Shown piece after piece: positions 1 to 28,165 of a stretch of 31,350 nt of DNA (position 1 is its first letter; each line of letters opens with the position of its first letter). A program made the position numbers and the translations under genes. This stretch comes from Conidiobolus coronatus NRRL 28638 (lineage: Eukaryota; Entomophthoromycota; Entomophthoromycetes; Entomophthorales; Conidiobolaceae). The stretch lies in contig KQ964421.1 of assembly GCA_001566745.1 (NCBI GenBank), positions 104,480-135,829 on the forward strand, given 5' to 3'. The notes beneath the pieces were generated by a model that was not told where the DNA came from, did no database searches, and saw only the letters and a list, made by a program, of their open reading frames with translations.

Positions 1-251
1 AATAAAAATTTAAAGCTTAATTAGAATCACTAATATGCTTGTTATATCTCTAGTAATATCTAAATTATTATTTATATTTAAGTAAACTAACTAAAATACA
101 ATATAAGCTAATAGGATATAGTTTGGTTTACTTTTAGATAATTATATATTAAGTTGCTAAAAAATATAAACTACTATATATAAATTTACTTGCTTATTAA
201 CCTCAGATATTTATTTAGTTGGTTTAGTTATAAATTTTTAATAAAAAACTT
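1..251. other. AT-rich intergenic, no gene seen
   Basis: Very AT-rich sequence with many stops in all frames and no recognisable gene. An imperfect inverted repeat lies at about 81-134 (AAGTAAACTAACT against AGTTTGGTTTACTT). It belongs to the same repeat-rich segment as the elements that follow. Confidence 0.5.
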
Positions 252-516
252 ATATAAGAGATTATAATTAATCTAACTTAAATTGTATAAACTCTATAAA
301 AATTTTTTATTTTAATATGAGAATGTTATTGTATATATAGTTATTAAATAAAAGAGAAGGGTTGATAATATCATATTAGAAGGCTATACTAAAAACGTTG
401 AATAATAAAAGAGTTGTTTAATATGCATTAATCAAGTAAAAATTGATAATATTATAAATTTGCAATATAAAAAATTTTGGACCAAATTTCCTCAATTTAA
501 CCAAAATCTTTCATAT
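252..516 (+). mobile_element. MITE-like element, copy 1
   Basis: A 265-bp non-coding element whose left end (ATATAAGAGATTATAATTAA) and right end (TTTAACCAAAATCTTTCATAT) are imperfect inverted repeats of each other and match the family ends. Inside are blocks shared with other copies: ATAGTTATTAAATAAAA, GTTGATAATATC, TAATAAAAGAG and, near the right end, AAAAAATTTTGGACCAAATTT. It shares its last four bases ATAT with the next copy, so the two sit head to tail. No coding potential; a transposase would have to act in trans. Confidence 0.72.
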
Positions 517-777
517 GTGTAATTCTAGTTAATTTGATTCAAATTTTGTATGAGCTCAGTTCAAAATTTTAACTGTAGTATAACCAAGTTATTAGTATTT
601 ATAGAGATTATTTAAAAAGATTAGGTTATATAACATATTATAATGCTGTTTTTTAGATTTAACTAACAAATAAGACTGTTTATACGCTTTAATCATATAA
701 AAAACAAAAATATTGCAAATTTGATCTATAAAAAATTTTGGACAAATTTTTATCGTTTTAGCCAGAATCTTTCATAT
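513..777 (+). mobile_element. MITE-like element, copy 2
   Basis: A 265-bp copy in the same orientation as copy 1 and directly abutting it. The left end reads ATATGTGTAATTCTAGTTAA, followed by the family block TGAGCTCAGTTCAAAATTTTAA-like sequence at 551-572. The right end reads AGCCAGAATCTTTCATAT. The internal block AAAAAATTTTGGACAAATTTT precedes the right end, as in the other copies. Diverged but alignable along its whole length by eye. Confidence 0.72.
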
Positions 778-955
778 ATAATTTTATTCAATAAATCTAA
801 ATATTTTAATAGTTAATTAATTAAATAGACGTATAAGAATTTTAAGAAATATCAAATGCCAAGTATATTACCATTTTAGATTATAAAACTTGTTTGAAGT
901 GAAGATATTTTTGAACCATTAGCTAAACTCATTAATTTTTAAAAGTATAAGGATT

Positions 956-1219
956 ATATAGAGATTCTGGTTAATTTAACTTAAAAATTGTATGAGCTTT
1001 GTTCAAAATTTTAATTTTAATATAATCGAGCTATTATCATATATAGCTATTAAATAAAAGACAAGAGTATCTTGTCATATTAAAACACTGTATTAAAAAT
1101 TAACTAATAAAAGAGGCTGTTTAATACGCCTTAACCATGTAAAAATCTAAAATATTATATATTTGCCATATAAAAAATTTTGGTCCAACTTTCCTTGATT
1201 TAACCAGAATCTCTCATAT
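956..1219 (+). mobile_element. MITE-like element, copy 3
   Basis: A copy of about 264 bp with well kept ends: ATATAGAGATTCTGGTTAAT on the left (one base short of the family consensus) and TTTAACCAGAATCTCTCATAT on the right. Internal family blocks include GTTCAAAATTTTAATTTTAA, ATCATATATAGCTATTAAAT, GAGGCTGTTTAATACGCCTT and TTTGCCATATAAAAAATTTTGG. With copy A at 17233-17482 it is one of the best-preserved members and helps define the consensus. Confidence 0.78.
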
Positions 1220-2279
1220 TTACAAAAGTCAAGGGAAGCTAAATATAAGCTATATCTTGTCATATATATTGTACTTATTATTAATTTATTCCTTAATTAT
1301 ATTACTTTATCTATATAATTTATTAGTCATTTTCTTTATTAATTTATGATTTATTAGATCACTTTTAAAACTAGATGCATATTATACAGTTAATAAATAT
1401 TAAATTTGGAAGCCAAATTAACTGTCATAATGAGCTAATCTTATTTGCTGTGATACCTTGTGGTTATTGAGTCCCCTGTGTATTTTTATTACAATACTGT
1501 ATATAAAAATTATAAGCTTTTTTAATCAGCGTATTATTTTGATAACTTTAATACAATCATACCTACTGAAAAACTTTAAATAACTGGTCAGCTTATTAAA
1601 TTATTACCTCAGATTTTTATTAATTTAAAACAAATTTCTACACATTACGTCATTTTATTGATTGAGCACAGATTATTATAGAGAGCCCAGATTTTATAAA
1701 CATTTTAAAATTAATAAATATGATCTGATCATGCTGTAAACATAATAGATCTATTTTAGCTATAGGTTTAGATTTTCTACTTTCTCAGCAAAAAGAAATC
1801 TATATGATAATAAAGGGATCCAAGTTAAACTGCAGTTTGTTAGAAGGCAAGTAGCACAAGCTATTATAGAGCATATGACCGATGAAACTTCTTAAAACTC
1901 AACAAATTAATTTCAGCCGCATCTGCTTACAAATAGGTGAAAAAAGTTTAGATGATTTCATAATTATATTAATATCAAAGCATGAGATATTTTTTCACAT
2001 AAAATAAAGCTAGATAAGTACAACACTGAAGAGTTGTTAATAGTAGATTATAAGCATATAGAAATATATGATTTGATTGCTTAAATAACTAATATGAATG
2101 CATTATTTAAAATTAAACAGATCTAAGTAGTGTAAAAAAATATTAGTAGTAAATAAAAATTAGTAGAAATTTATTGGCATATTGGGAAAACAAGTACAGT
2201 GCAATACAATGCAAAAGGTGTATATATAGACATTTTAAAGAGTTTATGTTGAAAAATGAAAAGCGAGGATATATTGGTG
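1220..2279. other. Intergenic, no confident gene
   Basis: About 1.06 kb between the repeat copies and the 3' end of the transcription factor gene. No family could be recognised. One stretch at about 1804-1900 (+) stays open for roughly 30 codons with a protein-like composition (…GIQVKLQFVRRQVAQAI…), but stops flank it on both sides. It could be a decayed transposon fragment or chance. Confidence 0.4.
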
Positions 2280-3902
2280 TTATAAGGGGTACCGTATTAG
2301 TAATCTCTTCAGCAGTGTAAGCATATCATTTAGAATTGGCCATACAAGAGAAAGACTTTGAAGCTTGTCATGGAAATAGTCAAAGTTTTGCCTACATCTG
2401 AGCTGAGGATGAATAAGAGTACATTTTGCAGCATAAAAGTAAAACATGCCAAACATATGATCAGATAGTTCAATACGTTCAAATTGTTCAATATGGGAGT
2501 GCTGTATGATTTTAAGCCCTTGTATAAGGTTAGTGAACACCTGTAGTTCGATTTGCTTAATTTGAGTGAGTTTATCTGCAAGATTGTGATCCTCTGGGTT
2601 TTGAGCAACTGCATCTTCAATTGGAGATATTAGAGAAACAAGGAGCTGGATACATATCACTTGGTTGGATAAAAATAGATAATAGAGACAAAAATATTGG
2701 TCGCAGGTAGTGGGTGAGTTATTGATCAAATAATTTAGATTTAAGTGACAAGGAAGAGTATAAATGTTGAATTGAAGAATGCTAAATAGTTGCGGTGTTT
2801 GCTCGAGAGGTGGTTTAGGGAAAGGCCAGCTATACCGTTTGATAAGTGCAAAAAAATATTGAGTCCAGCGAGCAGATACTTTTAGAGCTTCAGTTCGAGT
2901 TAAAGTAGAAGGGTCTTTAGAATACAGCGGCCCCAAAGGAGTGCTATAGTCGATAACAATGAAGTGAGGAATATTAAAGTGAAAGCTAAGAGCATTGTTG
3001 AGCGCAACGCAGCGGTGCCAAGTGGCTTCCTTTTCTTGCTTGGTAGCTGGATCCTCTAACTGTCTCATAGGGTCTGATGGATTATGTAGATTCATAATAT
3101 AAGACTTTTTCACCGCGTGGCTCATATGGCTCAAGGCTTTAACTGTTAATAAGCAAGATAGCTCAACACTTACCAATACTAAGCAAGACTGAACAAACTC
3201 TAAGCTAAACTCGGAAAATTTCTGTTCAATCAAATGACAAGCATACCTATAAAAATACTGGTCTTGAAGCTTTGGCGGTCTTTTGTTAGTAAATTCCGAT
3301 AGACAGAAGTATTCACTTCTACAAAATATAGCAGCCAATAAGGGAGAGCATTGTGAAGAACTCCTATACTGTGAATATATCTTCGACATATCTAAAAATG
3401 GCGAAATTGGATGTATATAACGATCGAAAATTTGTATCAGTTCATAAGCTACACCGTATGGCACTAAAAGAGTTAAATTAGAACAGTAAATGTATAATAA
3501 ATAAGATAGCTTACTTGATAGAACGCTAGCATTTGATAATCTATTAAAAACTTGAAAGTAAATATATAAAACTGACTGCTTATACTTGTTAAAGTTTTCA
3601 AAATCTAGTTGAGTTGAAATCAAAGAGTGATCTGTATATTTTAAATTCAACCTATTAATGTTTTGAATTAAGTTGTTTAAAGTTGATTCGACCTGGTGAC
3701 ATTTGAAAGTTAAAGATCTTCTATGTTGAGTATTTTGAGAATAATAAAACCAATAGTAATTACAATTTTCATTTCTAGCAGCACACCTTCCACAAACTGT
3801 AGCCCGGTCACACTTTTTCTTTGACATAAAACATTGTAAACAAGAGTGTAGATTTACAGGAACCTTGCTTTTGTTGCTTAAATTCCATTGATTGTATGGC
3901 AT
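2280..3902 (-). CDS. Zn2Cys6 fungal transcription factor
   Basis: A 540-residue single-exon protein. The zinc binuclear cluster lies at residues 21-47 with the spacing C-X2-C-X6-C-X5-C-X2-C-X6-C (Cys 21, 24, 31, 37, 40, 47) and the usual basic KKKCDR stretch inside it. The middle resembles the fungal-specific regulatory domain: FDRYIHPISPF around residues 159-169 followed by SPLLAAIFC (186-194), and TWHRCVALNNALSFHFNIPHF around 294-314, where family members have the WW...DR.LS..LGRP-type block. A helical or leucine-rich stretch at 71-90 may serve as linker and dimerisation region. Known family members bind CGG-type sites in the nucleus; the targets of this one cannot be told. The first Met is used because the cluster follows 20 residues later. 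Both flanks are gene-poor. Confidence 0.9.
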   Translation of the reverse strand: MPYNQWNLSNKSKVPVNLHSCLQCFMSKKKCDRATVCGRCAARNENCNYYWFYYSQNTQHRRSLTFKCHQVESTLNNLIQNINRLNLKYTDHSLISTQLDFENFNKYKQSVLYIYFQVFNRLSNASVLSSKLSYLLYIYCSNLTLLVPYGVAYELIQIFDRYIHPISPFLDMSKIYSQYRSSSQCSPLLAAIFCRSEYFCLSEFTNKRPPKLQDQYFYRYACHLIEQKFSEFSLEFVQSCLVLVSVELSCLLTVKALSHMSHAVKKSYIMNLHNPSDPMRQLEDPATKQEKEATWHRCVALNNALSFHFNIPHFIVIDYSTPLGPLYSKDPSTLTRTEALKVSARWTQYFFALIKRYSWPFPKPPLEQTPQLFSILQFNIYTLPCHLNLNYLINNSPTTCDQYFCLYYLFLSNQVICIQLLVSLISPIEDAVAQNPEDHNLADKLTQIKQIELQVFTNLIQGLKIIQHSHIEQFERIELSDHMFGMFYFYAAKCTLIHPQLRCRQNFDYFHDKLQSLSLVWPILNDMLTLLKRLLIRYPL

Positions 3903-6277
3903 GAATCGGGAGCATCCAGTATAAAGATGGTATGATTATATAGTTGAAGTTATGAGTATAAAATGAGAGCTGTTTAAGGAGAAATCGAATTTTCTAGTGC
4001 AATTTGAGAATCGCCTTAAATGTTAGAAAAATGGGAATGAAATTTCCTCAGTTAACTTACACAGTAAATAAAAACAACTCAGAAAATGAACTGGGTTTCA
4101 AACAAGCCTGTGATCATCCACTCGAAATTTGGGCCAATCAATGTATCATAAATATAGCTATAAAATATGCTTAAACAAATCTAGCCCATATCTAGCACTA
4201 GTTAGCTATCTGAGTTATTATATCCCTAATCCAACTAATTTTCTCGAATTAATATTTAGTTTATTTTATCTGTTTCGATCTGAAAGCGTATAGTGGGAAA
4301 ACTTGGTCAAAATTGTGGAAAATGATATGAAGCTATTATTGGATTAAGGTATTAATTTGATTGGGCTACAGGTTTCAAAATAATTTTATAGGCTCGATTT
4401 AAGAACAGTCATAAATCATTTCATATCATTTTGCTTTACTCCTTATATCTTATATCACCGATTCAATAGCTAATATTAATTATAGAATCAAATATACTTT
4501 AAATAGAAATATTTGCTTAGTAGCTATAATATTACTTCTTTTGTGCTTTAATATAAATACTATCACTATATACATTTTTTATTTGTTAAAATCTAGTTTT
4601 CTGCTTAATGAATACTATCAACAAATCAAAGATAAAGTGAGAAAAAGCAAATTACTAACGAAATTATTAAGATAAAGAGAAATTTGACATGTTCTGTTAT
4701 ACTTTTACCCACTAACAGAAAAACATTTGAACTATTAATATCTAGTATTATCCAGATTTAATAGGTCAAAAGCTACTAACAATAAAGTATTATGGTATTA
4801 TTGCAATTAATGCATGATAATTAAACATGATATGTAATTACGTTCATATTCGTAAAGTTAATTAATATATATATTTATTAAATAGCTTAAAATATTTACA
4901 TCTAAAATTTATTACTTGTTAAGATAGCATAATGTAGCACTTATAACATAACTGATTTAGAGCTACATCTAGTGTTTGATATATAAAATAACTTAATACA
5001 TCATCATTCAATTTAATTGGGGTGAAAATAATTTAAAAGATTCTATTGGCTAAAATACATATAAATGAAGAATTTATTTTTCTTATAATGTGTACTTCCT
5101 GTATATAAAAAAACTTCTCATCAAAAAAATTTAAGCTACTAATCTAAAATTTATTAATATTATTTAGCTACAATCTAAAATATTGGCATATTTAGAAAAT
5201 ATATATAAGCAGGCTAAATGGCACCATTAGGTAGATTAGTTTTTTAAAACAAAAGTCAGTACTAGATAGTCAAAATAATCCCAGTAAATGAATTAGAATA
5301 ATTCATTTTGATAGCTAAAGAGTTGGAGTCAAACACAAATTAGTCGTTATATCAAGATTTTATAAAATATATGTATTGCAGTATCAATGTTATTGGAAAG
5401 CGTCATTACATGTTTTTGTATTGAAAGATGTCTATTAATTATACTATCTAGATCAGTATATGCTAATGTTATTACTATAATGGCGAAGTTCATTTTAAAT
5501 GTGAGCTTATTCAGTCGCAAATAGCAAGACTTTAAATCAAGTTGGTATTCAAATCTGTATTATAACCAGATTTTTATAAGAGCATTATTAACTTGTGAAT
5601 TTCGTATAAAAACAGATTTTATCTACTAATTATCAAGGCTAACAAAAAGATTTTGGCAATATTTTCTCTTATCGGATATTAGTGTAACCATTTTATAGCT
5701 TATAATCTTACTATATTAAAAACATAGTCATAATAAAGCTAAATAGATATAATATTAAGATTTAAGATATGCACGAGATTAGTTGTAAAAAATAAACATA
5801 TGAATAATAACTGAAATCTTCTATTTCATAGTACAAGCACTCTACAATAAGCAACTTTAAAGCTATTCTAACTCTAAGGTTCTATAGATTAATAACATAC
5901 TAATAAAAATGTAGTCCAACTGAATTGCTTTATAAGATGTTTGCATTACCTATTTATGTAATTTTGTCCTTTACTTATGTTATTTATAAAGAAGCAATCA
6001 TTTCAATAAAATAGCTAGATTATAATAATCTCTAAAGTGGCAACTTGATAAAGATTAGCCACATATTAATATGTATAGGAGTGCTTAGTAATATAAACTT
6101 TAGTATCATAGGCAATAAACTAATTGAATTCAATAGTACGTATTAATGCTATTCAAGTAAATATTAAATACCTAGATATATGATGTTTAATGGAGTTAGT
6201 TTATAGAGATATTAAAGTTGATATAGCTATGTCAGTATATAATCTTTTATATTTAAAGATCAAAAGTAGTATAGCTA
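3903..6277. other. 2.4-kb intergenic stretch
   Basis: Lies between the start of the transcription factor gene (which reads left) and the stop of the SARAF gene (which also reads left), so it holds the promoter of the former and the terminator of the latter. It is AT-rich, dense in stops in all frames, and shows no tRNA, no MITE copy and no recognisable protein. Nothing else is supported. Confidence 0.5.
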
Positions 6278-7451
6278 TTATCTAGTTTCTGTTGATGGAG
6301 AAAAACTAACTGTAGATGATGAGTCGCCTCCCCAATAGCTCGATTGATTAGAAGAGCTTGAGTTAGATGATGTTCTAGTTTCTGTTGAAGGTGAAAAATG
6401 AGCAGTATAAGATGGGCCACTGCGTAAGTTGCTTAATTTAGACGTGAAACTTGGCTTAGAGCGTGGTTTTGTTGAGTCAGAGGTTGAATTTGCTCTACGA
6501 TTTGATTCAGTTTGACTGTATGAAGATGAAGAACTTCTACAGGGCTGAGAACGAGAATCACAGTGATGAGTGGTTGGGTTATTGACAATAATAGTTTGTC
6601 TACTATTTTATAATTAGCTTTGATTTCTAATAAATGGACTTAATTACCTTGGATAATAAGAAGTGTGACTTTGAAACCACCTGTTAAAACCAGATTGATC
6701 TCTGTTAGTTTGAGTGGTTTGTTGGTAATCTTCGTTTGTTGAAGAAGTGGCAGTATCATAATCAGGAGGAGCATCTATAATAATTATTATTACTTTCAAA
6801 CATAGGTTAAATATATTTACCATTGTAGCTATTTCTTTGATTGTCGTGGCTTTGAGCACTATTATACCATTCAGAGCTTTTTATAATCTTATATATTATG
6901 AATAATATAAACGTTACAAAAAATACTATAAAAACTGGGTGTATTGTGGAGTTATCAGTGGGTATTTTATCTTTAGAGCTTGAATCAGATTTTAACTTTA
7001 ATTCATATTTTAAACCACAGCTTCCAATTAACACAAAAGGATCACTTGAATCGTCATAGCCTAATATCGAGTTAAAAAATTTAATACTAATAATTATAAT
7101 AAAATAGAACCTTCGCAAGAAATTCGAGTTTGTCCTAGTTTTAAATTGTCAGGGAGTTTAGCTGTACAGTGCCACTCAGGTTCTAAAAAACAAAATTAGT
7201 TTTAAATTAAATATCATATTAGAAAAGTACCTGAGCCACTTTGATTCACGTTATCGCATACTACATTATCTAAACTATGGTTAATAAAGACACTTCGTCC
7301 TCAGTATGAAATTACCAATCACATTCTTTTTGCATAACGGACCCACGCAAGTCAACTGCTGAATAGGGCTTAATCTTCTTCCTGTAGTTCTTTGACCTTG
7401 TTTAAACTCTAATTGGTCAATTTGATTTAGCAGAATTCTTTGGGCTCTCAT
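6278..7451 (-). CDS. SARAF (TMEM66) homologue
   Basis: Six exons, read leftwards: 7451-7316, 7260-7231, 7182-7111, 7060-6821, 6774-6648 and 6602-6278. The five introns are 45-55 nt with GT-AG ends. The frame is kept throughout, giving 309 residues. Recognisable SARAF blocks are GRRLSPIQQLTCVG (25-38), NVIVCDN (43-49), EPEWHCTAKLP (56-66), SCEGYDDSSDPFVLIGSCG (77-95), one transmembrane helix at about 120-140, then a Pro/Tyr motif APPDYD and a Ser-rich cytosolic tail. In animals SARAF is an ER membrane protein that restrains store-operated calcium entry through STIM; a similar ER calcium role here is inference. The tail carries FSPSTETR twice. No signal peptide is visible before the first Met, whereas the family has one, so a 5' exon may be missing. 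The 30-nt second exon is unusually short. Confidence 0.85.
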
Positions 7452-8208
7452 TATTACTAGCGTTATTCGATATACTTATTATTTATTCTTGTAATCATTT
7501 TATATTGTTTATATTTTAATTTTTATAGAATCAAAGTGTAAAAATTAAACCAATCAAAAATTTCCATAAATATTTCAATTTAATGTTTAATTTTTGAATG
7601 TGAAATATGTTAAGAAGTTTTCATAAAACTGGATTTAAATTTAAGCACTTAATCAGCAATCAATATAATATTTTGAAAAATATGTGGTTTATCATACGGC
7701 TTAAGCTTTAAAATTTAAATAATGCCAAGTAATATATATAAAATAAACTAAGATAGTGAAATCGTGTAGTATTATTCTGTTTTGCGTAAGATTAAAAAGT
7801 CAGGTTATATGAAATAATATAATATTGCTAGCTATCAAACAAGAATATAAGCGATAATTTCAACAATTTATTATTTATATATAGCTTAATGTATACATAT
7901 TAATATTTATTAAAAACGTACAATTATAAACTAGCCTCAAGAGCTATTTGATTAAATTTTTTTGCATATTTCAAATATTCTGCTAAAGTATTCTTAAATT
8001 CAATAGATGTGAATTTTCTTAAATATTAATGGCTTTAGTGTTGTATTATTAGTAGGTATATGATATAATATAACTATTTTCGAATAAAAAAGTGATATCA
8101 TCAATGTTCACTTATTTAATTAAATAAGGATGAAAGTATATTTTAGTTAGCTTGTGACAATATTGTACTAAATACTTGTATTCTTTGATATATTTTACTC
8201 ATAACACA
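7452..8208. other. Intergenic between divergent genes
   Basis: AT-rich sequence upstream of the leftward SARAF gene. No coding segment was found that supplies the missing signal peptide: the nearest upstream ATGs lead to stops within a few codons without a usable splice. No other feature was seen. Confidence 0.45.
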
Positions 8209-8477
8209 ATATGAAAGATTCTAGTTAAAACGAGGACAAATTTGACCAAAATTTTATATATGGAATATTCGCGATATTTTTGATATTTAATCGCTTAAAG
8301 CTCATTAAAGACTAGCTTTTATTAGTCAAAGTTGATAATATAGTTATATAATACAATATTATTATCAATTCTCTATTAAATAAATACTATACACGATGAA
8401 AACTTGGTTATAAAAAATATAAATTTTGAACTTAGCTCTTACAAAATTCAAATCAAATTAACCAGAATTACTCATAT
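8209..8477 (-). mobile_element. MITE-like element, copy 4 (inverted)
   Basis: A 269-bp copy in the opposite orientation. The left end ATATGAAAGATTCTAGTTAA is followed by ACGAGGACAAATTTGACCAAAATTTT-like sequence at 8229-8254, the complement of the family's right-end block. The right end carries GAACTTAGCTC, then TCAAATTAACCAGAATTACTCATAT, the complement of the left-end block. It lies in the SARAF/NAA50 divergent intergenic region. Confidence 0.7.
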
Positions 8478-9012
8478 ATATTTTTAGTAAAATTCTTATT
8501 GGATAATTTCAAGCTATTATTAAAAAATATGCGCAAAGTGTTAAATATAACTAAATAACAGTTAAAAACTCATATTTGCGTTGTAGAGTGTATTAATTAA
8601 AGTTAAATTAGCATATATTCTTCAAGGCTAAAAGCATGGTACTATAGTTTAAATATTGATTGATCTTTATTGTTGTAATTAACACAATTTTCAAGCTAAT
8701 ATTTAATTTTAAATTAGAGCCAATATGATAGAGTAATGATAACTTGTCATCCGTATAACAAGAATTTTGTAACTAATATTAAGTAGGTTAACTTTAATGA
8801 GTAAAATAATTGATTCTATTTTGAATAATGAGTCAATTTTAGTTATAAATTTTTTTAAAAAGACAAGTATATTTATAGAAATAGCTAGAGTCTTTTTATA
8901 GCTTCCTTCTTTGAATTATGCTATGACTTTGCTAATAGAGTGATATCAAATCACTTAATAGATTACAATATTTTTTATTATCTAGAAAAATAATCTATTA
9001 ATAAAGTTAATA
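8478..9012. other. AT-rich spacer between two MITE copies
   Basis: A 535-bp AT-rich segment separating two copies of the element that lie in opposite orientations. No open frame, RNA gene or other repeat was recognised. Confidence 0.45.
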
Positions 9013-9253
9013 ATATCAAAGATTATGGTTAACTTAGTTCAATTTTTGTATGAGCTCAGTCCAAAATTTTAATTTTTATAACCAGTCTTCATCATATATA
9101 GTCATTATTTAATAGAGATTTAATGATAATATCATACTGAAATAGTATATCATCAACTTTAACTGATAAAAGTATCTTTTTAATAAGCTTTAAGCAACTA
9201 AAAATCAAAAGTTTTGGACAAATTTTCCTCGTTTTAACTAGAATCTTTCATAT
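9013..9253 (+). mobile_element. MITE-like element, copy 5
   Basis: The shortest copy, 241 bp. The left end ATATCAAAGATTATGGTTAA is followed by TGAGCTCAGTCCAAAATTTT. The right end reads AAAGTTTTGGACAAATTTTC then TAACTAGAATCTTTCATAT. Compared with full copies, the AT-rich block TTTGCCATATAAAAA before the right arm is reduced, which explains the length. It ends about 300 bp upstream of the NAA50-like start codon. Confidence 0.7.
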
Positions 9254-9557
9254 CATGTTCAGTTATTTTAATCATTTTGATCTATATATTATATTTAATA
9301 CTCGAATTTTATCAAAAATCTTATTTTTTCTATAGTATTCACATATTTTTATATTATCAAAAGGAATTCATCTATATTAAATTTTATACAACGCTGTCTT
9401 TTTAACACATTAAATTTTATTGTAAATTTGATATCAAAGATCAAACCCATAATACTTAAATTGAACAATATAATTTTAAATTGTTTAATTTTTGTGAAAT
9501 TAACAATACTGAAAGTATCAGAATAATTGAAACTCATCAACTAACATACTCAATAAA
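9254..9557. other. Promoter region of the NAA50-like gene
   Basis: About 300 bp between MITE copy 5 and the start codon. AT-rich; no conserved promoter motif could be named. It must hold the core promoter and 5' UTR if transcription starts close to the gene. Confidence 0.4.
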
Positions 9558-10139
9558 ATGACTGTCACTTTATCTCACCCAAATGTTAGAATTGGTTTAG
9601 ACGAAATCAACCCCAATAACTACGGACAATTCAGAGTTCTACATAACAAAGTATACTCAAAGCATGCCGAAACTGATTTCAGCAAAGCAATCACTCACCC
9701 TGATTTTTCAAAATATGGTAACTTGTAGCTTAATATTAATTAACTCATTTTTAATATTTTTATTAGTTTTTTATAATGATGTTGCTGTTGGTGCCATTGT
9801 CGTTGAACAAATTAGCACTCCTAATGCCACCGATTCTAAAAATAAGACAAGTAATCATTCATACGTCATTAAGCAGCTTTTAGTTTTACCCGCTTATAGG
9901 AGGAACGGTTTAGGTATATATTTTAATACATACTATTATATTGTTTACTCATTTCAATTGGCTTAGCTTCCCGTTTAATTAAGTTTGTCATTGATATTTG
10001 CGCTAAAGACTCTGAATTTACTCACTTAACTGTTGAGCTCAATGATAGCACTAAAGATTCATTTGTATTAGAATGGCTTCAACGCTTAGGATTCTCTAAG
10101 CAAGAAGAATCATACATAATTAATGTAAATATTGCCTAA
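9558..10139 (+). CDS. NAA50-like N-terminal acetyltransferase (GNAT)
   Basis: Three exons, 9558-9717, 9767-9913 and 9967-10139, with 49- and 53-nt GT-AG introns, encode 159 residues. The fold is GNAT: beta strands around YNDVAVGAIVVE (56-67), YVIKQLLVLPAYRRNGLA (86-103) with the acetyl-CoA loop R-X-X-G-X-A, then HLTVELND (122-129) and LGFSKQEESYIINV at the C-terminus. The blocks line up with NAA50, the catalytic or structural partner of the ribosome-bound NatA complex. Several NAA50 residues differ: the substrate loop Phe-Pro-Val is replaced around VYSK (32-35), the catalytic His on the fourth strand is Thr124, and the Tyr-Tyr pair near the end is Tyr-Ile (152-153). Tyr86 aligns with the catalytic Tyr. 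It could instead be another GNAT subfamily member. It converges with the EF-P gene 210 bp downstream. Confidence 0.75.
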
Positions 10140-10349
10140 TAATGAGTTTATACACAATATCTAACTTATATTTTTATAGAATACTGAATTATTAAGCTCA
10201 GCTCTTGAAAAGTTGAAAATTTAATCGAGAATAAACATGTATTTATTCATAATATTATCTTTTATCAAAATTAAAGTATTTTAATGATTTACTGACAATA
10301 ATTAAAAATTTTGGTTTACTTTATTAGACGTAGTTAATTTAGCAAAAAT

Positions 10350-11146
10350 TTAAGCTCTTCCCATATATTCGAAGGTGTTCAAATCAATTTGAACTTTATC
10401 TCCAGATTGGACAAATTCGGGAACCATAACTTGCATTCCTCCTTTTAAGAATCCTGGAACCTTCATTACTCCTCTGGAAGCCTGCTTAGCCTTCATTGTA
10501 ACACTTTCAACTTCATAGATGCCTGAACTGGGCAACTTAGCGGACACTGGGTTACCGTCTTCTAAAATGGAAACAACCAAGCTCATTTCTTCTTGAAGGA
10601 AATTAATTGCTTTTTCACCTCCAACAAGTGCTGACAATTGAACGCTGATTTGATCACTGGTCTCAGGGTGGAGTAAGTGGATTTCATCAGCATCATGGTA
10701 AAGGTATTGATAAGTTGAAGTCCTTTGCTCAACAACTAAAAAAAGATTATTATTAGCTAATTCAGTTTATGATAATGTGATTATTTACTTTCTAAATCGT
10801 CTTTAGGCTTGAACCTTTCTACAATTTTATAATCACTTGATAAATCTTTAATTTCAAGCTATACCAACTGAGATTAATACATATACACATTGAATGATTT
10901 AATAGTACCTTAATAGTAGCACTTCCACGACCCATTACACTGTGATCTTTGTTTAATACTAGCCAATTTTTGCCTTTGTGCTCAATAATATTTCCTTCTT
11001 TAACTGAGTTTACTCCTACTTTGTAACCTCTATTGAAAAAGAGAGAATACTTCAAGAATTAGTATATCGTAACGGTAAAATTTGAAAATGCTCACTCTTT
11101 GAACTGAAGGAATTTTAGAAATTGCTTTAATATTATTGATTAACAT
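10350..11146 (-). CDS. Organellar elongation factor P
   Basis: Four exons, read leftwards: 11146-11096, 11049-10909, 10858-10789 and 10735-10350. Introns are 46, 50 and 53 nt; the first has TACTAAT close to its acceptor. The model gives 215 residues. The first about 25 residues (MLINNIKAISKIPSVQR...) are basic, lack acids and look like a mitochondrial targeting sequence. The KOW-like domain I follows at about 26-86, the OB domain II at about 88-150 (EQRTSTYQYLYHDADEI) and domain III to the end (VPEFVQSGDKVQIDLNTFEY). EF-P enters the ribosomal E-site region and rescues ribosomes stalled at proline runs. The tip residue equivalent to E. coli Lys34 is Arg58 in MGRGSA. An apparent start at 11055 is a TTG inside intron 1 sequence and is not used. 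bL17m, another mitochondrial translation gene, lies just upstream on the same strand. Confidence 0.88.
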
Positions 11147-11501
11147 GCTTGTTTTATCTCTGTTTGACAATATTTAATCAGTATATTAAACTGAGAATAT
11201 AATAGGTGATGTAACTAGATCTGATTTAAATTTAACTAAATAAAGTAATTATATACTTTTATGGGATTGCTGGCGAAGGTTGGCTATTGAGTTAATATAG
11301 CTTGGGAAGGCATTATTTAGGTGATTTTGAATAAAAGAAAGAAAGTAGATCACAATGGTTTTCAATAAGCGAAAAACTGATTAAATAATAGCATAATATG
11401 AAGCATACTCTATAAATATGTATAATAAATATTAAAATCTAGTAATAAATAGCAATTTAATAATTATGTAAATAATATCTATTATAATAAATTAAATTTA
11501 A
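11147..11501. other. EF-P promoter / bL17m terminator interval
   Basis: A 355-bp spacer between two leftward genes. AT-rich, with a slightly less AT-rich patch at 11255-11330. No RNA gene or repeat recognised. Confidence 0.45.
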
Positions 11502-12269
11502 TTAAACAGTTAGTTTGGACATGGATTCAGTCATTAATTTCATTTCTTTTTGTACTTCTTCGTTCCAAGCATTTTCATCTAAAAAGTGATCCTTTTTAAC
11601 TTGTTCAACCTTGCGTTCAAAGCTTTGCATAGACTTCTTTAAGTACATTAAGCGTTGGAATTCTTGCTTAGGTAAAAGCATTTGCTTAGTTTTGCTTGTT
11701 TCTAAAAGTTCTTTGATTTCGGCGCTTGTTAAAAGTCCCTTAGAGTCTTTGTCTAATCTTCTCTTAGCTTCAGCCTTAATGGTCATAAACTTTTTAATAT
11801 CATTGGGCTCTCCAACATATTCAATGATACCAACAGGGGCATTATCACCATATCTAGTACCATATTTATGAACTCTAGTGTAACCACCAGGGCGATCTTG
11901 GAATCTCTTTGCAAGTTCTTGCAATTTAGGAATGGTGGTTTCGTGTTCCTAAAATGAAAAATAAATACAAGCTTGAGAAAAATAATATATGAAAAAATAC
12001 CCTAATATAGTTTTTGGCTAAAACAACATGATGGTCTTGTCCTTTTTTGAAATAAGTGACAATCTAAAAAATGGGGTTTTAGTATAAATTAAATTAACAA
12101 TAGTAATTATTTATACTTTATCAGCTAAGCGTTGAAGAGATTTAGCCTTGGTCCAGGTAGTTTCGATTCTTCCGTGTTTAATTAAGGAAGTGAGCATATT
12201 TCTCAACATATCTTGACGATGTAAAGTGGTCTTGCGTCCTAATCTTTTTAAATGTTTTCCGTGATGCAT
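11502..12269 (-). CDS. Mitochondrial ribosomal protein bL17m
   Basis: Three exons, read leftwards: 12269-12117, 12063-12001 and 11948-11502. Introns are 53 and 52 nt, GT-AG, and the model gives 220 residues. The N-terminal about 120 residues are the bacterial L17 domain: [20 protein letters not shown], then [24 protein letters not shown], later [20 protein letters not shown] and GIIEYVG. Bacterial L17 ends there; the remaining about 90 residues form a charged, helical extension ([14 protein letters not shown]... [20 protein letters not shown]) typical of mitochondrial versions. The protein sits near the exit tunnel of the large subunit. No cleavable leader is obvious; the protein begins directly with the L17 domain, as in yeast. 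Expected to be co-required with the neighbouring EF-P for mitochondrial translation. Confidence 0.92.
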
Positions 12270-13345
12270 TTTTATAAATTTTTAATATAATAAGCTGATT
12301 AAATTGGTTATTTATTTAAACTGTTTTTTAAAATAATTTGAATACTAATAAATTTATCAAATTATCAATTGACCAAGTTATTTATTATTATTACTCATTT
12401 GGCCGATTGTTAAAAATTATTTATAATTATCTGTTTTATTGAAAAATTGTGGGATCTAATTCAAATGCTGTGCTATGATCTAAATTCATTGCTTCAATGT
12501 CGCACATATATATAATATATATAGCACAATTGACCATTAAACTAGGTTTTTGAATTATTATTAATATTGATGTTGATATCTTTGTTATACTCTGTATTCT
12601 TTATATTGCCTAAACCCTTCAAACTAATTATATATTTTATATTTTTAGTTGACATGCTCAAAAGTATTGATATTTTGATAAAATGCAAATTTACTCAGCT
12701 AACTAGATAATCATAAATTATAAAACTATTTATTTTAATATAATATATTTCAATACCACGTTTACAATTAAATTACTGAATATACTTCACCATTAAAGAG
12801 CTTAAAATATAATTTTACCACAGTTTTAATAATAATTAGCTTTGATGACTATTTAATCCTAGATATTTTGTAAACTCTAACTAAAAATCTAAAAATATCA
12901 TAGAAGTGTAAGAGTATAATCTTAAATTGCATTTATGATGCTCTATTAGAAAATCACTTGATTTAAATAAAATATGAAATATGAAATACTCTATCAAATG
13001 TTACAATTTAAAACTTTTGTGAACTATATATACAATCTGTAGCTGATTTATAGCTACGTTTTTATATAAATATATATTGTTTTAACCTTGATTTTATATG
13101 CACTATAGAAGCTAGGGAACTACCCTGTCACTTGAGCTAGTTATTATGTATCGCTCGTAACAGATTTTCAAGCTTGCAAAACCAACATTTTAATTTATTT
13201 CTTTTTGAAACTAGATTTGCCAATAAGAATCTTTATTGAATTTGTATAACGAAATAAAACTTTAAAAATCTTCGATAAGTGTTTTTGGTTAAACTGAGTA
13301 GTTATAAATTTATTTCTTGTTAATCCTTTTACTTTTTTAATTAAA
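12270..13345. other. Divergent intergenic region, 1.08 kb
   Basis: Separates the leftward bL17m gene from the rightward 7TM gene and so holds both promoters. It is AT-rich with short ATAT runs (for example 12508-12522). No repeat copy, RNA gene or protein segment was recognised. Confidence 0.45.
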
Positions 13346-14098
13346 ATGCTTGCACTTGAACATCTTTGCTCTTATATAACTACTACTTTAGTTCTTCTTA
13401 TGATACTTCACACAGCTTTTCATGCTGTACTCTTGGAAGTCAAAGTAAACAAGTGTTTGGTTTTATTATTTGTGATGTTGGTGTTTTGCCTTTTCAATGC
13501 CGTATCTAATAACATTCTTATGAACAGCAGCTTAGTGAAGTACCATCTTTATGGAGCTGTTGGGGCTTGCGTCTTTTGGATAATATGGTCACAAGCTTAC
13601 AATATGCTAGTTATTCAGCTTAATAGATTTCTCATCAAGCCTGCGATTTACAGAATATCCAAGTTCTTCATTGCGTTGATTCTTATAGTACAATTAGTCA
13701 TGACAGGAGTATATGTCAAAGCAAATTTGGGTGATAAAGACCCTAATGGCGAAGATGCTATTTTATGAACTTTATGCAAATATATTGACATTCTTTACTT
13801 AGTGATAGCATGTTTGCTAGAGTATTTTATTAGCATTTCTATTTTTATTGAGCTTAGGAGCTTTATAAAAAGCATTGAAGAGCTTGATCTGGTTAAAAGA
13901 AAGATTAAAATTCTATTTGGTGTCATTGTGTTTTTTATGCTTGTTGATATTGTTATTTTATACTTGGAGATATCAGATCATTCAAATATCGGATATGCGA
14001 CAAAGCAGTTTTTCTTTAGCTTGAAGGCGGTTAACGAGTATTTTTGCATTTCTAAGCTGCGAGAAATTTTAATAGCCACTTGTATGATTCAAGGTTAA
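13346..14098 (+). CDS. Seven-helix membrane protein, unknown function
   Basis: Two exons, 13346-13730 and 13803-14098, joined by a 72-nt GT-AG intron, encode 226 residues. Seven hydrophobic segments can be seen at about 9-31, 36-56, 66-91, 103-124, 128-150, 163-185 and 190-213, with short loops and almost no N-terminal tail. The size and topology fit small fungal 7TM proteins, sometimes called GPCR-like, but no diagnostic GPCR motif (such as DRY or NPxxY) is present, so no function is assigned. The last helix is followed by the basic CISKLREIL. If the intron is retained, the reading frame runs 12 codons into it and stops, giving a 140-residue, four-helix protein. A degenerate MITE copy starts 42 bp after the stop codon. 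Confidence 0.65.
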
Positions 14099-14139
14099 AA
14101 TTTTCTTAGTTATAATCTTTCATAATATTAAAATAAAGT

Positions 14140-14393
14140 ATATGATAGATTCCAGTTAAATGATAAAGTATTGTCCAAATTTTTTTCTAGACAAATTTAT
14201 AATACTGTTGATTATTTTTTTCAATAAAGCATTAAACCATCGTTTTATTAATCAAAGTTGCTAGTATATGATATTATGATATTATCATCGTTTCTTCTTT
14301 AAATAATAGATTTAAGGTCAATAGCTCGTATATAATAAAATTTATATTTTGAACACAGCTATAATGAATTAAATTAACTGGAATAGCTTGTAT
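14140..14393 (-). mobile_element. MITE-like element, copy 6 (inverted, degenerate)
   Basis: A diverged copy of about 254 bp in the opposite orientation. The left end ATATGATAGATTCCAGTTAA and the following GTCCAAATTTTTT and CAAATTTATAATA match the complement of the family's right arm. The right end ATTAACTGGAATAGCTTGTAT matches the complement of the left arm with several changes. It begins 42 bp after the stop codon of the 7TM gene and may form part of that gene's 3' end. Confidence 0.55.
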
Positions 14394-15005
14394 ACTCTAG
14401 CCTATAATTTGGTTAATCATGATAAAAGTCGGCATATTATTTCTCGTGTATAGATAATACAAATATGCACGGCTTGCTTTTTTCATTCCTTGTTAATGGA
14501 TATGTAACGCTTTTAATATTAATGCTCTTAATCTCAATTTAGAGTTAAACAGTTAATTCTTAAGATTTTATAGAACTATTTTTATTAATTATTTGAGCTG
14601 TATATAATTATTAAAACTATAGTGAAGAGTTCAAAATATAATATATAAATTTTAATACATAAAGAATCATAATGACTTATAGATTTTGGGCTAATTAATC
14701 ATGATAAAATAATAACCGGATCTTTAATATTTTATAGTTTATTTTTGAGAGTTTCAACGTCATATTTAATAAATTTAGCTATTTAGGTCAAATTAACATA
14801 AATGTAATTATTATTAATCAATTACAATATATTATTTTGGCTATTCTACTAAAATAAGTTGAATTTTAATCACGAAAAAAATTATTAGATCTATTTATAT
14901 ACTTAACGCTATAATTCCATTCATATTAACAAAATTAGCACATGTTTCATTAATACAAACTTTTAAAAAATAGAATAAAGATTCGTATTTCTGACTTTTT
15001 TTTTT
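14394..15005. other. AT-rich intergenic stretch before the gap
   Basis: About 610 bp without a recognisable gene, ending in a run of nine T at 14997-15005 where the assembly breaks off. An open frame on the minus strand here exists only because it runs through unknown bases. Confidence 0.45.
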
Positions 15006-15276
15006 NNNNNNNNNNNNNNNNNNNNNNNNNNNNNNNNNNNNNNNNNNNNNNNNNNNNNNNNNNNNNNNNNNNNNNNNNNNNNNNNNNNNNNNNNNNNNNN
15101 NNNNNNNNNNNNNNNNNNNNNNNNNNNNNNNNNNNNNNNNNNNNNNNNNNNNNNNNNNNNNNNNNNNNNNNNNNNNNNNNNNNNNNNNNNNNNNNNNNNN
15201 NNNNNNNNNNNNNNNNNNNNNNNNNNNNNNNNNNNNNNNNNNNNNNNNNNNNNNNNNNNNNNNNNNNNNNNNNNNN
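15006..15276. other. Assembly gap (271 N)
   Basis: A run of unknown bases. The left border is a T homopolymer, the right border is ordinary AT-rich DNA. Nothing can be said of the content. Confidence 0.98.
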
Positions 15277-15894
15277 TTTACACTAATCATAAATTAATGT
15301 TAGACTATTATCATGTTATTTTACATATATTTCCATACCAAGCTCAAATTAGTATTTTATATGCAACTTGATATACATATTCTGATAGCTGTTATATAAA
15401 ATATAGTAACATTAATTTCAATAGTCAATATAATATGTAAATAAAACCATCTAATCAAGCTTCAATTTTGTTTATAAACTTCAAACAAGGTTGATAGACT
15501 GAGTTCATTAAAATGAAGATGAATGTTTTTAATTAATTTATCATTCTCAACGACTCTTAACATCTTTCATTTAAACGTAGATTTACTATTCAAGTATCTT
15601 AATCCTATTATATGCCTTAAAATCTCCTTTCTTAAGTAAGCAAATTCCCAATATTTGCATTTATAATCTTCACTTTTATTCTTAATTTTTCAATAACATC
15701 TTTTTACAAATATATTAGACTCAGCTCAAATTATACCAGTAAATGCTGATTTTATAACTTAACGGCAGTCATAGGCTAAAAATATTATTTTATCTTAATC
15801 TCTTTACTTATCAGTATGTTTAATTATAGTAATACTGATATCTATACACGAAAAATCCTTTGGTAGTATTGATAAAAATAAATAATCGCAAATT
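15277..15894. other. Intergenic, distal ASF1 upstream region
   Basis: AT-rich sequence between the gap and the proximal ASF1 promoter. No gene, repeat copy or RNA gene was recognised. Confidence 0.4.
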
Positions 15895-15966
15895 ACGCGT
15901 TCTAGACATTTGATTGGTCCAATCTAGTTATCATAAATGACATTAAGTCTAAAGAAACTTGATTGG
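15895..15966 (+). promoter_or_regulatory. ASF1 promoter: MCB box and CCAAT boxes
   Basis: ACGCGT at 15895-15900 is a perfect MluI cell-cycle box, the site bound by MBF-type (Swi6/Mbp1-like) regulators of S-phase genes in fungi. The near-palindrome GATTGGTCCAATC at 15912-15924 offers a CCAAT box on both strands. A further inverted CCAAT (GATTGG) lies at 15961-15966. They stand about 100-170 bp before the ASF1 start codon. That the sites are functional is inference, but S-phase control suits a histone chaperone gene. Confidence 0.55.
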
Positions 15967-16067
15967 CTAATTTTTACAACCCATAATTATTATTAACACG
16001 ACTCTTAAATAATTTAACAAACCTATTCTGAGCTTGTTAGCTTATAATTTTATAATATAACCACAAT

Positions 16068-16688
16068 ATGAGTATCGTAAATCTTACTGGTGTCCAAGTT
16101 TTAAACAACTTAGTCCTTAGCACTGAACCTTATCAATTTGAAATCGCCTTCGAGTGCTTAGGTCAGCTTCAAACTGATTTAGAATTCCGCATCAGCTATG
16201 TTAAGCAAGCTGATAGATTAACTGAAGATTTAATTTTAGATTCTTTCAACGTTGGTCCTGTCCCTATAGGTTTAAGCAAGTTTAATATCGAAGTTCCTGC
16301 CCCCGACTTCTCCAAAATTAACTCTTTGGATATTGTAGATGTTACTGTTGTTTACATTTCCTGCTACTATAGAGAACAAGAATTTGTCAGATGTGGCTTT
16401 TACCAAAATAACTACTACGAGTCTGAAGAGCTTATGAATGAACCTCCTTTGCAAATCGACTTCACTCAACTTAAGAGAAACTTATTGGCAGAGCGTCCTA
16501 AAGTAACTGTTTTCCCTATTAACTGGGACGAGCCCAATCCTGAGTTACAAGTTCCCGACCAACCTGAAGCCGATCTTGATCAAAGCCAACAATATGTTAC
16601 ATTAAATGGCGATGATAACGAAATGGAAGCTGATGAAGGTGACTTTGTAGATGAAGATGATGATGCTATGTCTGTTGAAGAAAACTAA
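16068..16688 (+). CDS. ASF1: Histone H3-H4 chaperone ASF1
   Basis: A 206-residue single-exon protein. Residues 1-155 are the conserved Ig-like ASF1 core, with landmark stretches PYQFEIAFECL (21-31), LDSFNVGPVPIG (57-68), DVTVVYISCYYREQEF (91-106), RCGFYQNNYY (108-117) and FPINWDEPNPE near the end of the core. Val94 and Arg108, both needed for H3-H4 contact in yeast and human ASF1, sit at exactly those positions. The last about 45 residues are a Glu/Asp-rich tail, as in fungal orthologues but shorter than in budding yeast. The protein hands H3-H4 to CAF-1 and HIR and supports Rtt109-type acetylation in replication-coupled assembly. An MCB box and CCAAT boxes precede the gene. Codon use is richer in C and G than the surroundings. 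Confidence 0.97.
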   Translation: MSIVNLTGVQVLNNLVLSTEPYQFEIAFECLGQLQTDLEFRISYVKQADRLTEDLILDSFNVGPVPIGLSKFNIEVPAPDFSKINSLDIVDVTVVYISCYYREQEFVRCGFYQNNYYESEELMNEPPLQIDFTQLKRNLLAERPKVTVFPINWDEPNPELQVPDQPEADLDQSQQYVTLNGDDNEMEADEGDFVDEDDDAMSVEEN

Positions 16689-17232
16689 ACTCAAGAATCA
16701 TATACGTTTAAATAACAACCATGTAATTATTATTGTTTATCAATATTCATCATCAAGATTGCGTTATTTCGCTTTCTCTCTTTAAATTTTATTTTAGTAC
16801 AAACTCTGGTCAAGTTTCTACTCTGAATAGCATACTCAATATTATATTCGGTATTCTAATTCAACTTATTTTTAGCCACTATTGCTCTTCTATAAAATCG
16901 TTATCTTATTATTTGTAATATAATAACGAGTTGTGTAAGTAAAATTGAAAAACTCTGGGTGCAAAAGTGATCGCAGATAACGTCATTTTATTTTATAGTT
17001 ATATCAGCAGTATCTTCATCATCACAACATCTATATCGTTATAATTAAGACTAAATAATAATAATTTTTACATTTTAAATCATTTATCTTGAGTCATTAA
17101 CTGTGATTAAATTCCATAATAATTTTTTAATAATTTTAAATTTAGTCTAGATTCTGAATATCTAGTATATTTTACTATTTTTTTCAAAGTTTTTTATCTT
17201 TGCTGACAGTAATCTAAAAATTGTAAAATTTC
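16689..17232. other. ASF1 downstream spacer
   Basis: About 540 bp of AT-rich sequence holding the ASF1 3' end. The small open frame at 16733-16918 has AT-driven composition and no recognisable features, so it is not called. Confidence 0.45.
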
Positions 17233-17482
17233 ATATGAGAGATTCTGGTTAATTTAACTCAAATTTTGTATGAATTCTGTTCAAAATTTTAATATAAGCG
17301 AGTTACTATCATATATAGTTATTAAATAAAACAAAAAAGTTGATAATATCGTACTAAAAGTATTGGCTAATAAAAATGGTTATTTGATACGCCTTATTCA
17401 TGTAATAATCAAAAATATTATAAATCTGCCATATAAAAAAATTTGGACCAAATCTCCTTGATTTAACCAGACTCTCTCATAT
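17233..17482 (+). mobile_element. MITE-like element, copy 7 (well preserved)
   Basis: A 250-bp copy with strong ends: ATATGAGAGATTCTGGTTAA on the left and TTTAACCAGACTCTCTCATAT on the right. Internal blocks match copy 3 closely: GTTCAAAATTTTAATATAA, ATCATATATAGTTATTAAAT, GTTGATAATATCGTAC, CTAATAAAAATGGTTATTTG, ATACGCCTTATTCATGTAAT and CTGCCATATAAAAAAATTTG. All copies keep TA just inside the outer A/T at both ends, as expected if the target duplication is TA. Confidence 0.8.
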
Positions 17483-18308
17483 ATTAAATTTAATAATAAA
17501 TGTAATGCTATTTTAAAAAAACTTAATTTTACTTTTTACATCTAATTTCTAATAATATTTTTATAATTGAGCCTCTTTATATATTCTAGGTTATAGATAA
17601 CTACTTTAAATTAGTTATTATTCTCCTATACTATACAAAAATTAACTATCAAATGCTATTTAAATTACTAAACATAAGGTATATTGTTACATTTAAATAA
17701 GAAAGGATTATAGATAATGTAAGCATTCTTTTTTAATAAATTAATTAATATTTCAATTATATAAAAGTTTTAAGAATTTAAACAAAATATTTATATTCAT
17801 ATTTTTCTATTATTGTTTCTATACTAGTTATAATTAATTAATTATTAACTTAATGAATAGAAATATCATTTATATTATTTTTTTATAAAAGATATTTAAA
17901 AATTATTATTAAAAGGTTAAAATGTTATAAAATATTGTTATGCTTATTTATTTTATACATAGTATAATTTATTAATAAAAACTATTAAGAAATCTTTGTA
18001 TTTTATAGAATTTAAATACCTTATATTCTATCTATCCAAAAATGACTTCGAAAAATATAATGTGCAGTGATTAGATTGCCGCATATATTAAATATGCATG
18101 CATATGATAATAATAAGGTGCTAGGAAATTAAATAAAAGTAATATCCCGGCATACATGTACAGCAGACGATTTTATAGTTACAGTTATAAACATAATGAG
18201 ATTCTGCAAATACTTCCGTTACAGTATTTAAGTATAGATGGGGAGTTTTTAAAATCAGTATAAATTACTCAATTATGCGCTGTGTTTGAATTTCCAGAAT
18301 ATAACATC
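17483..18308. other. AT-rich spacer between MITE copies
   Basis: About 830 bp, extremely AT-rich up to 18030 and slightly less so after that. No open frame of note, RNA gene or further repeat copy was recognised. Confidence 0.45.
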
Positions 18309-18590
18309 ATATGAGCGATTCTGGTTAATTTGACTCAAATTTGTGTCATTTTTGCTCAAAATTAACTTTAACATTAATTTTAACATTAATTTTGAGTGAG
18401 TTATTATTGATTACAATCGCTATTTAAAGAAATATAGCTGATAACATCGTATCATTATGTACGATATCAACTTTAGTAGATAACGATGAATTGATAATAC
18501 ATTTTAAATACGTTATATAAATAATATTGCAAATTTTCCCTATAAAAATTTTACACAATGCTTCCGCAGTTTAATTGAAATCACCCATAT
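18309..18590 (+). mobile_element. MITE-like element, copy 8 (longest)
   Basis: A 282-bp diverged copy. The left end ATATGAGCGATTCTGGTTAA is well kept; the right end TTTAATTGAAATCACCCATAT is degraded. Near 18362-18394 the unit TTTAACATTAAT occurs twice in tandem, which accounts for part of the extra length. The AATATTGCAAATTTT block before the right arm matches copy 2. Confidence 0.68.
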
Positions 18591-27635: not shown

Positions 27636-28079
27636 GTACAACTTCTAATTTGCCAAATTTGTAACTTTGGGATAATTTGTGTACTTAAAAGGAATGAACT
27701 GAAGACAATTTAAAGTTAAAGTACGCAATATGCACTTGAAAGAGTATAAATACAAAGGAATCGTTTTAGTACACTTATATCAAAGTTTATCAAAATGCAG
27801 AAAATCTACTTAATAGCCAATTTTTAATATTTATTAAAGTAATAATAACAAGGTAACAAATAATATTTGAAGAAAAAAAGTAAAAGGGTAGATTAATATT
27901 TATGTAAAAGAAAATTATTATACCTAATTTAGGTAAGATGCTGAAAGAGATATGGGGTTTATTAAATAATAATAAAGAATCATGATTTATTAGTTGAGAA
28001 ATAAATATAATGATGATAAATATTAAACGTATCACTATTAAATTTAAATTATTATTAAGATTTTTATTCTAAATGACAT
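27636..28079. other. Promoter region of the WD40 gene, upstream of tRNA-Leu
   Basis: About 440 bp. A TATAAATA sequence on the + strand near 27746 points away from the WD40 gene and lies too far from the tRNA to be assigned. The AT-rich minus frame at 27790-28035 has homopolymer-driven composition and is not called. Confidence 0.4.
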
Positions 28080-28161
28080 GGACAGATGGCCGAGTGGTCT
28101 AAGGCGCCACGTTAAGGCCGTGGTCTCTTCGGAGGCGAGAGTTCGAACCTCTCTCTGTTCA
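28080..28161 (+). tRNA. tRNA-Leu (anticodon AAG)
   Basis: A complete class II tRNA of 82 nt without intron. The acceptor stem GGACAGA pairs with TCTGTTC (one G-T), and A28161 is the discriminator. The D arm is GGCCGAGTGGTCTAAGGC and the anticodon stem CCACG/CGTGG with loop TTAAGGC, so the anticodon is AAG, read as IAG after deamination. It has a long variable arm with a TTCG loop and a T arm GAGAG-TTCGAAC-CTCTC. A-box and B-box promoters are internal. Confidence 0.97.
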
Positions 28162-28165
28162 TTTT
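28162..28165 (+). terminator. Pol III terminator of tRNA-Leu
   Basis: TTTT directly after the discriminator base, the minimal RNA polymerase III stop signal. A second T run follows at about 28174-28178. Confidence 0.75.

Follow-up and report, generated by a model that had tools for sequence, protein, structure and literature searches.

An old family of TA-type MITEs, probably moved by a Tc1/mariner-like transposase, in Conidiobolus coronatus

Eight segments of the Conidiobolus coronatus genome are best explained as copies of an old, TA-type MITE family that was mobilised by a Tc1/mariner-like transposase, a reading to which we give a probability of about 0.75. All eight lie in one stretch of 31,350 nucleotides (C4:104480-135829), the whole of which was analysed and is here called the window. 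Insertion of these MITEs duplicates the TA inside an ATAT target, or all of ATAT; the assignment to Tc1/mariner is likely but unproven. The evidence for this reading consists of the recovery of all eight copies by a profile, sharp ends, copies nested in one another, direct agreement between deviant ends and a Y-ATAT-R insertion context. In the mechanism that we propose, a transposase of the Tc1/mariner kind, made elsewhere, would recognise the terminal repeats and either cut the element out or copy it, and the element would then enter an ATAT site with duplication of TA (or all of ATAT). The transposase may since have been lost, have diverged or lie outside the assembly, and the copies would now be mostly relics.

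The profile has 269 positions and was built without the window copies, from 24 others in the genome. It recovers each of the eight segments over almost the full length, at 62.7-222.2 bits (Table 1), while 50 dinucleotide shuffles of the window gave a single match of 8.9 bits. The boundaries proposed for the segments in the initial annotation agree with those of the profile to a single base (for the segment starting at 956, extrapolation puts the start at 955), and the copies do lie in both orientations, two on the minus strand and six on the plus strand. The ATAT at 513-516, the right end of copy 1, is common to copies 1 and 2, and their junction is also found as a junction-pattern match at C4:104980-105007. 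Copy 3 has an altered left end, ATATAGAGATT. The left end of copy 7, which served as the query for the genome search, is a perfect 20-base repeat. Copy 6 has the lowest score of the eight and is a singleton in clustering, and copy 8 belongs to a diverged subfamily (29% from the overall consensus; cluster 1, with 8 copies). On the minus strand, window positions 17-36 carry a degenerate version of the terminal repeat, ATATTAGTGATTCTAATTAA. The profile has no match next to it, and it could be either what is left of a ninth copy or a chance occurrence.

Table 1. Copies of the MITE family in the window, with their matches to the profile
Feature	Position	Strand	Profile match
MITE copy 1	252..516	+	profile 2-269 at 253-516, 159.7 bits
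MITE copy 2	513..777	+	profile 1-269, 136.9 bits; abuts copy 1
MITE copy 3	956..1219	+	profile 6-269 at 960-1219, 222.2 bits
MITE copy 4	8209..8477	-	profile 1-269, 125.3 bits
MITE copy 5	9013..9253	+	profile 3-269 at 9015-9253, 109.3 bits; shorter, 241 bp
MITE copy 6	14140..14393	-	profile 6-269 at 14388-14140, 62.7 bits
MITE copy 7	17233..17482	+	profile 1-269, 215.5 bits; 250 bp
MITE copy 8	18309..18590	+	profile 1-269, 67.8 bits; 282 bp

The density of copies in the window had suggested many more throughout the genome, and this is borne out by a search of the assembly (17.5 Mb in 186 contigs, probably partial). The 20-base terminal repeat, allowing at most 3 mismatches, has 380 + 368 = 748 matches genome-wide against 2 + 0 in a reversed control; with a looser pattern the counts are 1,157 and 138. 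A search with copy 7, as had been proposed, gave 386 first-look candidates; the 40 of these that were scored yielded 43 match rows, three of them short pieces and 40 nearly full length. The nearly full-length rows, which include copy 3, are 76-83% identical to copy 7, not counting the query itself (100%). The sequences are thus not confined to the window, and their high copy number at unrelated sites is that of MITEs. Of the matches to the stricter pattern, 11 belong to the eight window copies; the looser one has 15 in the window, 12 of them at these copies and 3 away from copy ends. By arithmetic from the terminal-repeat matches, we estimate the family at some 540-680 copies, or 0.8-1% of the assembly. 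The window is about eight times denser in copies than the genome average, which is why the family was noticed. Nowhere in the viral contigs did 19 bases of the terminal sequence match exactly.

For a survey of individual copies we used 258,131 bases of non-redundant fetched DNA, in which the profile has 139 matches; with four overlapping ones dropped, these represent 135 copies, 101 full length and 34 partial, in both orientations. The full copies measure 241-282 bp, and 90 of the 101 fall within 260-269 bp. The consensus consists of ATATGAGAGATTCTGGTTAA, then about 229 bp, then the near complement of ATATGAGAGATTCTGGTTAA. Terminal inverted repeats are thus present, as ATATGAGAGATTCTGGTTAA or a close variant at both ends, and beyond these terminal 20 bases the two sides of the element differ. 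In the 100 full copies with both flanks the ends coincide with the alignment boundaries and are sharp: conserved ATATGAGAG and CTCTCATAT give way to near-background composition from the next base out, except for a mild pyrimidine/purine preference directly beside ATAT. At either end the conservation extends to all of ATAT and not to TA alone, with 91-95% at each of the four bases, and directly outside this tetranucleotide the flanks are unrelated.

The copies are non-coding and lie between open reading frames, as had been noted for the window. In the 101 full copies the longest stop-to-stop run has a median of 39 and a maximum of 82 codons. None of the 135 copies is covered over more than 20% of its length by an ORF of at least 120 codons, in a test that covers ORFs only; such ORFs make up 25.4% of the remaining DNA. 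Copy 6 lies about 40 bp past the stop of the ORF at 13802-14098. Most copies are old, since their divergence from the consensus has a median of 16% (range 7-29%) and their pairwise identity a median of 73%; a few pairs look younger (maximum 96%). The commonest changes relative to the consensus are C-to-T and G-to-A. Average-linkage clustering divides the 101 full copies into one group of 91, one of 8 and two singletons.

Three lines of evidence show that the target is duplicated. Nested insertions can serve as empty sites within the genome, in place of the empty sites in related strains that the initial annotation had suggested inspecting for a TA duplication. In three of nine places examined, the host copy is interrupted and, once a single ATAT is retained, its alignment runs across the junction with no gap; the cases on C166 and C60 are clear, and the one on C72 is weak, with two bases aligned past ATAT on the short side. 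The other six places show abutting copies or are ambiguous. A second line of evidence comes from the terminal tetranucleotides, which are ATAT at both ends in 71 of the 101 full copies. In the eight copies in which both depart from it, three pairs agree directly and none in inverted form: AAAT/AAAT twice, with different flanks, and ATGT/ATGT once (permutation p 0.0003, a value that ignores the relatedness of copies). Such direct pairs indicate target duplication, because a mutated inverted repeat would give the opposite pattern. Restricted to the middle two bases, the comparison has seven copies deviant at both ends, with three direct agreements and one inverted, the last counting against our reading. 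The initial claim of a TA-type duplication therefore stands as to duplication, through the nested copies and the co-variation of the ends, while its length may be either 2 bp (TA) or 4 bp (ATAT), since the two leave identical sequence where the target reads ATAT.

Two further properties of the flanks were considered. A longer duplication outside ATAT was sought at eight widths from 2 to 10 bp, and only that of 3 bp is nominally high (0.39 vs 0.316; reached in 2 of 500 shuffles). Nominally it speaks against a Tc1/mariner-type element, but we do not believe it; by eye the three best-scoring copies are without it. The context Y-ATAT-R surrounds 32 of 69 usable copies (the 71 with ATAT at both ends less two that adjoin another terminal repeat), against 23.5% of 4,353 ATAT sites outside copies (p 4e-5). 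At the Tc1 consensus positions beyond Y-ATAT-R these copies show no preference. Tc1 is, in addition, an autonomous element. The likeness to Tc1 of Caenorhabditis elegans concerns the target site only, where Y-ATAT-R is the core of the consensus CAYATATRTG (PMC9635669), and it supports a Tc1/mariner assignment without defining one.

A rival that we consider clearly less probable, but still worth weighing, is that the MITEs were driven by the transposase of another superfamily, with a 4-bp duplication at a strict ATAT target. The equal conservation of the four ATAT bases at both ends is stricter than expected for a TA-only target and would suit such an enzyme, and at ATAT the 2-bp and 4-bp duplications look alike. 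The terminal motif points the same way, as the ends read TGAG... and not CAGT as in the published mimp pattern (PMC5579170). Against another superfamily, the three direct deviant pairs differ from ATAT at the two inner bases only, and the Y-ATAT-R context resembles that of Tc1. No superfamily described so far is known to duplicate ATAT.

The search for an autonomous partner bears on the same choice. In the genome no match was found to DDE_3, DDE_1, DDE_Tnp_1_7 or Transposase_1, a result that counts against the Tc1/mariner reading and would suit a different superfamily; of these four domains only DDE_3 matched in control genomes, so that the negatives for the other three are weak. Domain searches of this kind can work in this genome, as ASF1 and RVT_1 were found in it. 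Reverse transcriptase has only eight matches in the whole assembly (on C185, C138, C1, C85 and C115), which reflects either few retroelements or a repeat-poor assembly. This limited search did not find the full-length element, with a DDE/D transposase between the same ends, for which the initial annotation had suggested looking, and the fetched DNA, a biased sample around MITE matches, showed no longer element bounded by these ends. In that same biased sample, three of 205 terminal repeats (at most 3 mismatches to any of four variants) lie more than 25 bp from the end of any full or partial profile match. Unpaired exact terminal repeats were considered as ends of longer elements, but at all six sites examined (L091-L096), among the first 100 places listed, they lie within MITE copies, one of which runs off a contig end. 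A stretch of 2.9 kb between good ends, C2:318603-321524, was likewise rejected as an autonomous element; its two ends consist of nested MITE pieces and of a MITE copy, and what lies between them is a P450 gene. At positions 53-522 of this locus (L090, C2:318550-321580), several MITE pieces are nested within 470 bp near the P450 gene. Tc1/mariner elements make up 12% of the genome of E. muscae and 13.9% of that of E. maimaiga, both related Entomophthoraceae, and Massospora cicadina is effectively without DNA transposons (PMC11105155). A Tc1/mariner transposase in this lineage is thus plausible and no more.

Copies that abut end to end are the third line of evidence for target duplication and a natural record of target choice. 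Genome-wide, 20 junction-like sites at which copies share a single ATAT were found with at most 3 mismatches, against none in the control. About a dozen of the 20 have, by eye, a terminal repeat on both sides, and seven are backed by two abutting profile matches (the window pair and those on C134, C129, C36, C80, C35 and C37). The 21 sites found at 4 mismatches in the fetched DNA, without a control and many of them one-sided, were set aside. With ATAT sites at 18-21 per kb, we would expect only few end-to-end events by chance, so that the element may favour such ends as targets, unless some other bias is at work. One could imagine an undescribed superfamily of DNA transposons with a strict 4-bp ATAT target that prefers the ATAT ends of its own earlier copies, hence the end-to-end pile-up, but we regard this as improbable.

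It is very improbable indeed that the segments never moved by themselves and are regulatory or structural repeats dispersed by segmental duplication or gene conversion. Their age and their position between ORFs would suit such repeats, as would the folding of copy 7, the sole copy folded, which beats shuffles (z -3.25 as DNA, -3.89 as RNA). Yet the flanks are unrelated right outside ATAT, the copies interrupt one another with clean ATAT junctions and occur in both orientations, and Rfam has no matches in the window other than two tRNAs away from the copies. Chance similarity of AT-rich DNA, which the 18-24% G+C of the window copies might bring to mind, is already refuted by the one weak match in the shuffled windows and by the count of terminal repeats, 748 in the genome and 2 in the control.

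Among known systems, the Tc1/mariner-type MITE that we favour can be compared with mimp of Fusarium, a MITE mobilised by the Tc1/mariner element impala. It too is a fungal MITE of similar size (about 180-220 bp) with terminal inverted repeats and many copies, and it is believed to have arisen from a full-length element that lost its transposase ORF (PMC5579170). The same paper gives mimp ends as NNCAGT..., whereas those of the present family start TGAGAG, and the mobilising transposase is known for mimp1, whereas for this family none was found. Stowaway-like plant MITEs, such as DcSto of carrot, are likewise AT-rich, shorter than 500 bp and flanked by a TA duplication, with nested and clustered insertions, but their terminal motif is 5'-CTGCCTCCRT and their host a plant (PMC3695323); TGAGAG ends and a fungal host set this family apart.

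The window has a G+C content of 28.1%; published genomes of C. coronatus have 27.5-27.65%, and one of them measures 44.21 Mb (PMC12387763, a study that used MITE-Hunter for its repeat library). The window looks fungal, in that its predicted proteins include Zn2Cys6, ASF1, TPR and PPR types, and EF-P and L17, found in pieces, suggest introns. The P450 next to the MITE cluster on C2 matches one of C. coronatus NRRL 28638 at 88% identity across its full length, and a protein from sources labelled jgi and lgn at 97%. ASF1 matched itself and two relatives at 49%, one of these from the fungus Glarea and neither named as Conidiobolus, and the PPR protein matched only itself. Positions 15006-15276 are a run of 271 N, either a gap or withheld sequence, and 28078-28165 hold a tRNA-Leu (AAG) gene, the sequence of which recurs near MITE copies on C45 and C129 with 98-100% identity over 88-95 bp. 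The other repeats inspected in the masked fetched DNA are, by ORF reading, gene families (SDR, UGT, P450, 7TM) and a tRNA gene. At L013 (C113:42222-45480), two diverged short-chain dehydrogenase-like genes, so labelled from ORF reading and 81% identical over 849 bp, form an inverted pair that flanks a MITE copy.

The kind of element and its mode of movement are textbook matters and not new. Searches of open papers listed no description of MITE families in Entomophthoromycotina, and the family is new as far as these listings show. Conidiobolus (Entomophthoromycotina) thereby gains a well-bounded MITE family that would be of use in repeat masking and in dating insertions relative to one another in genomes of this kind.
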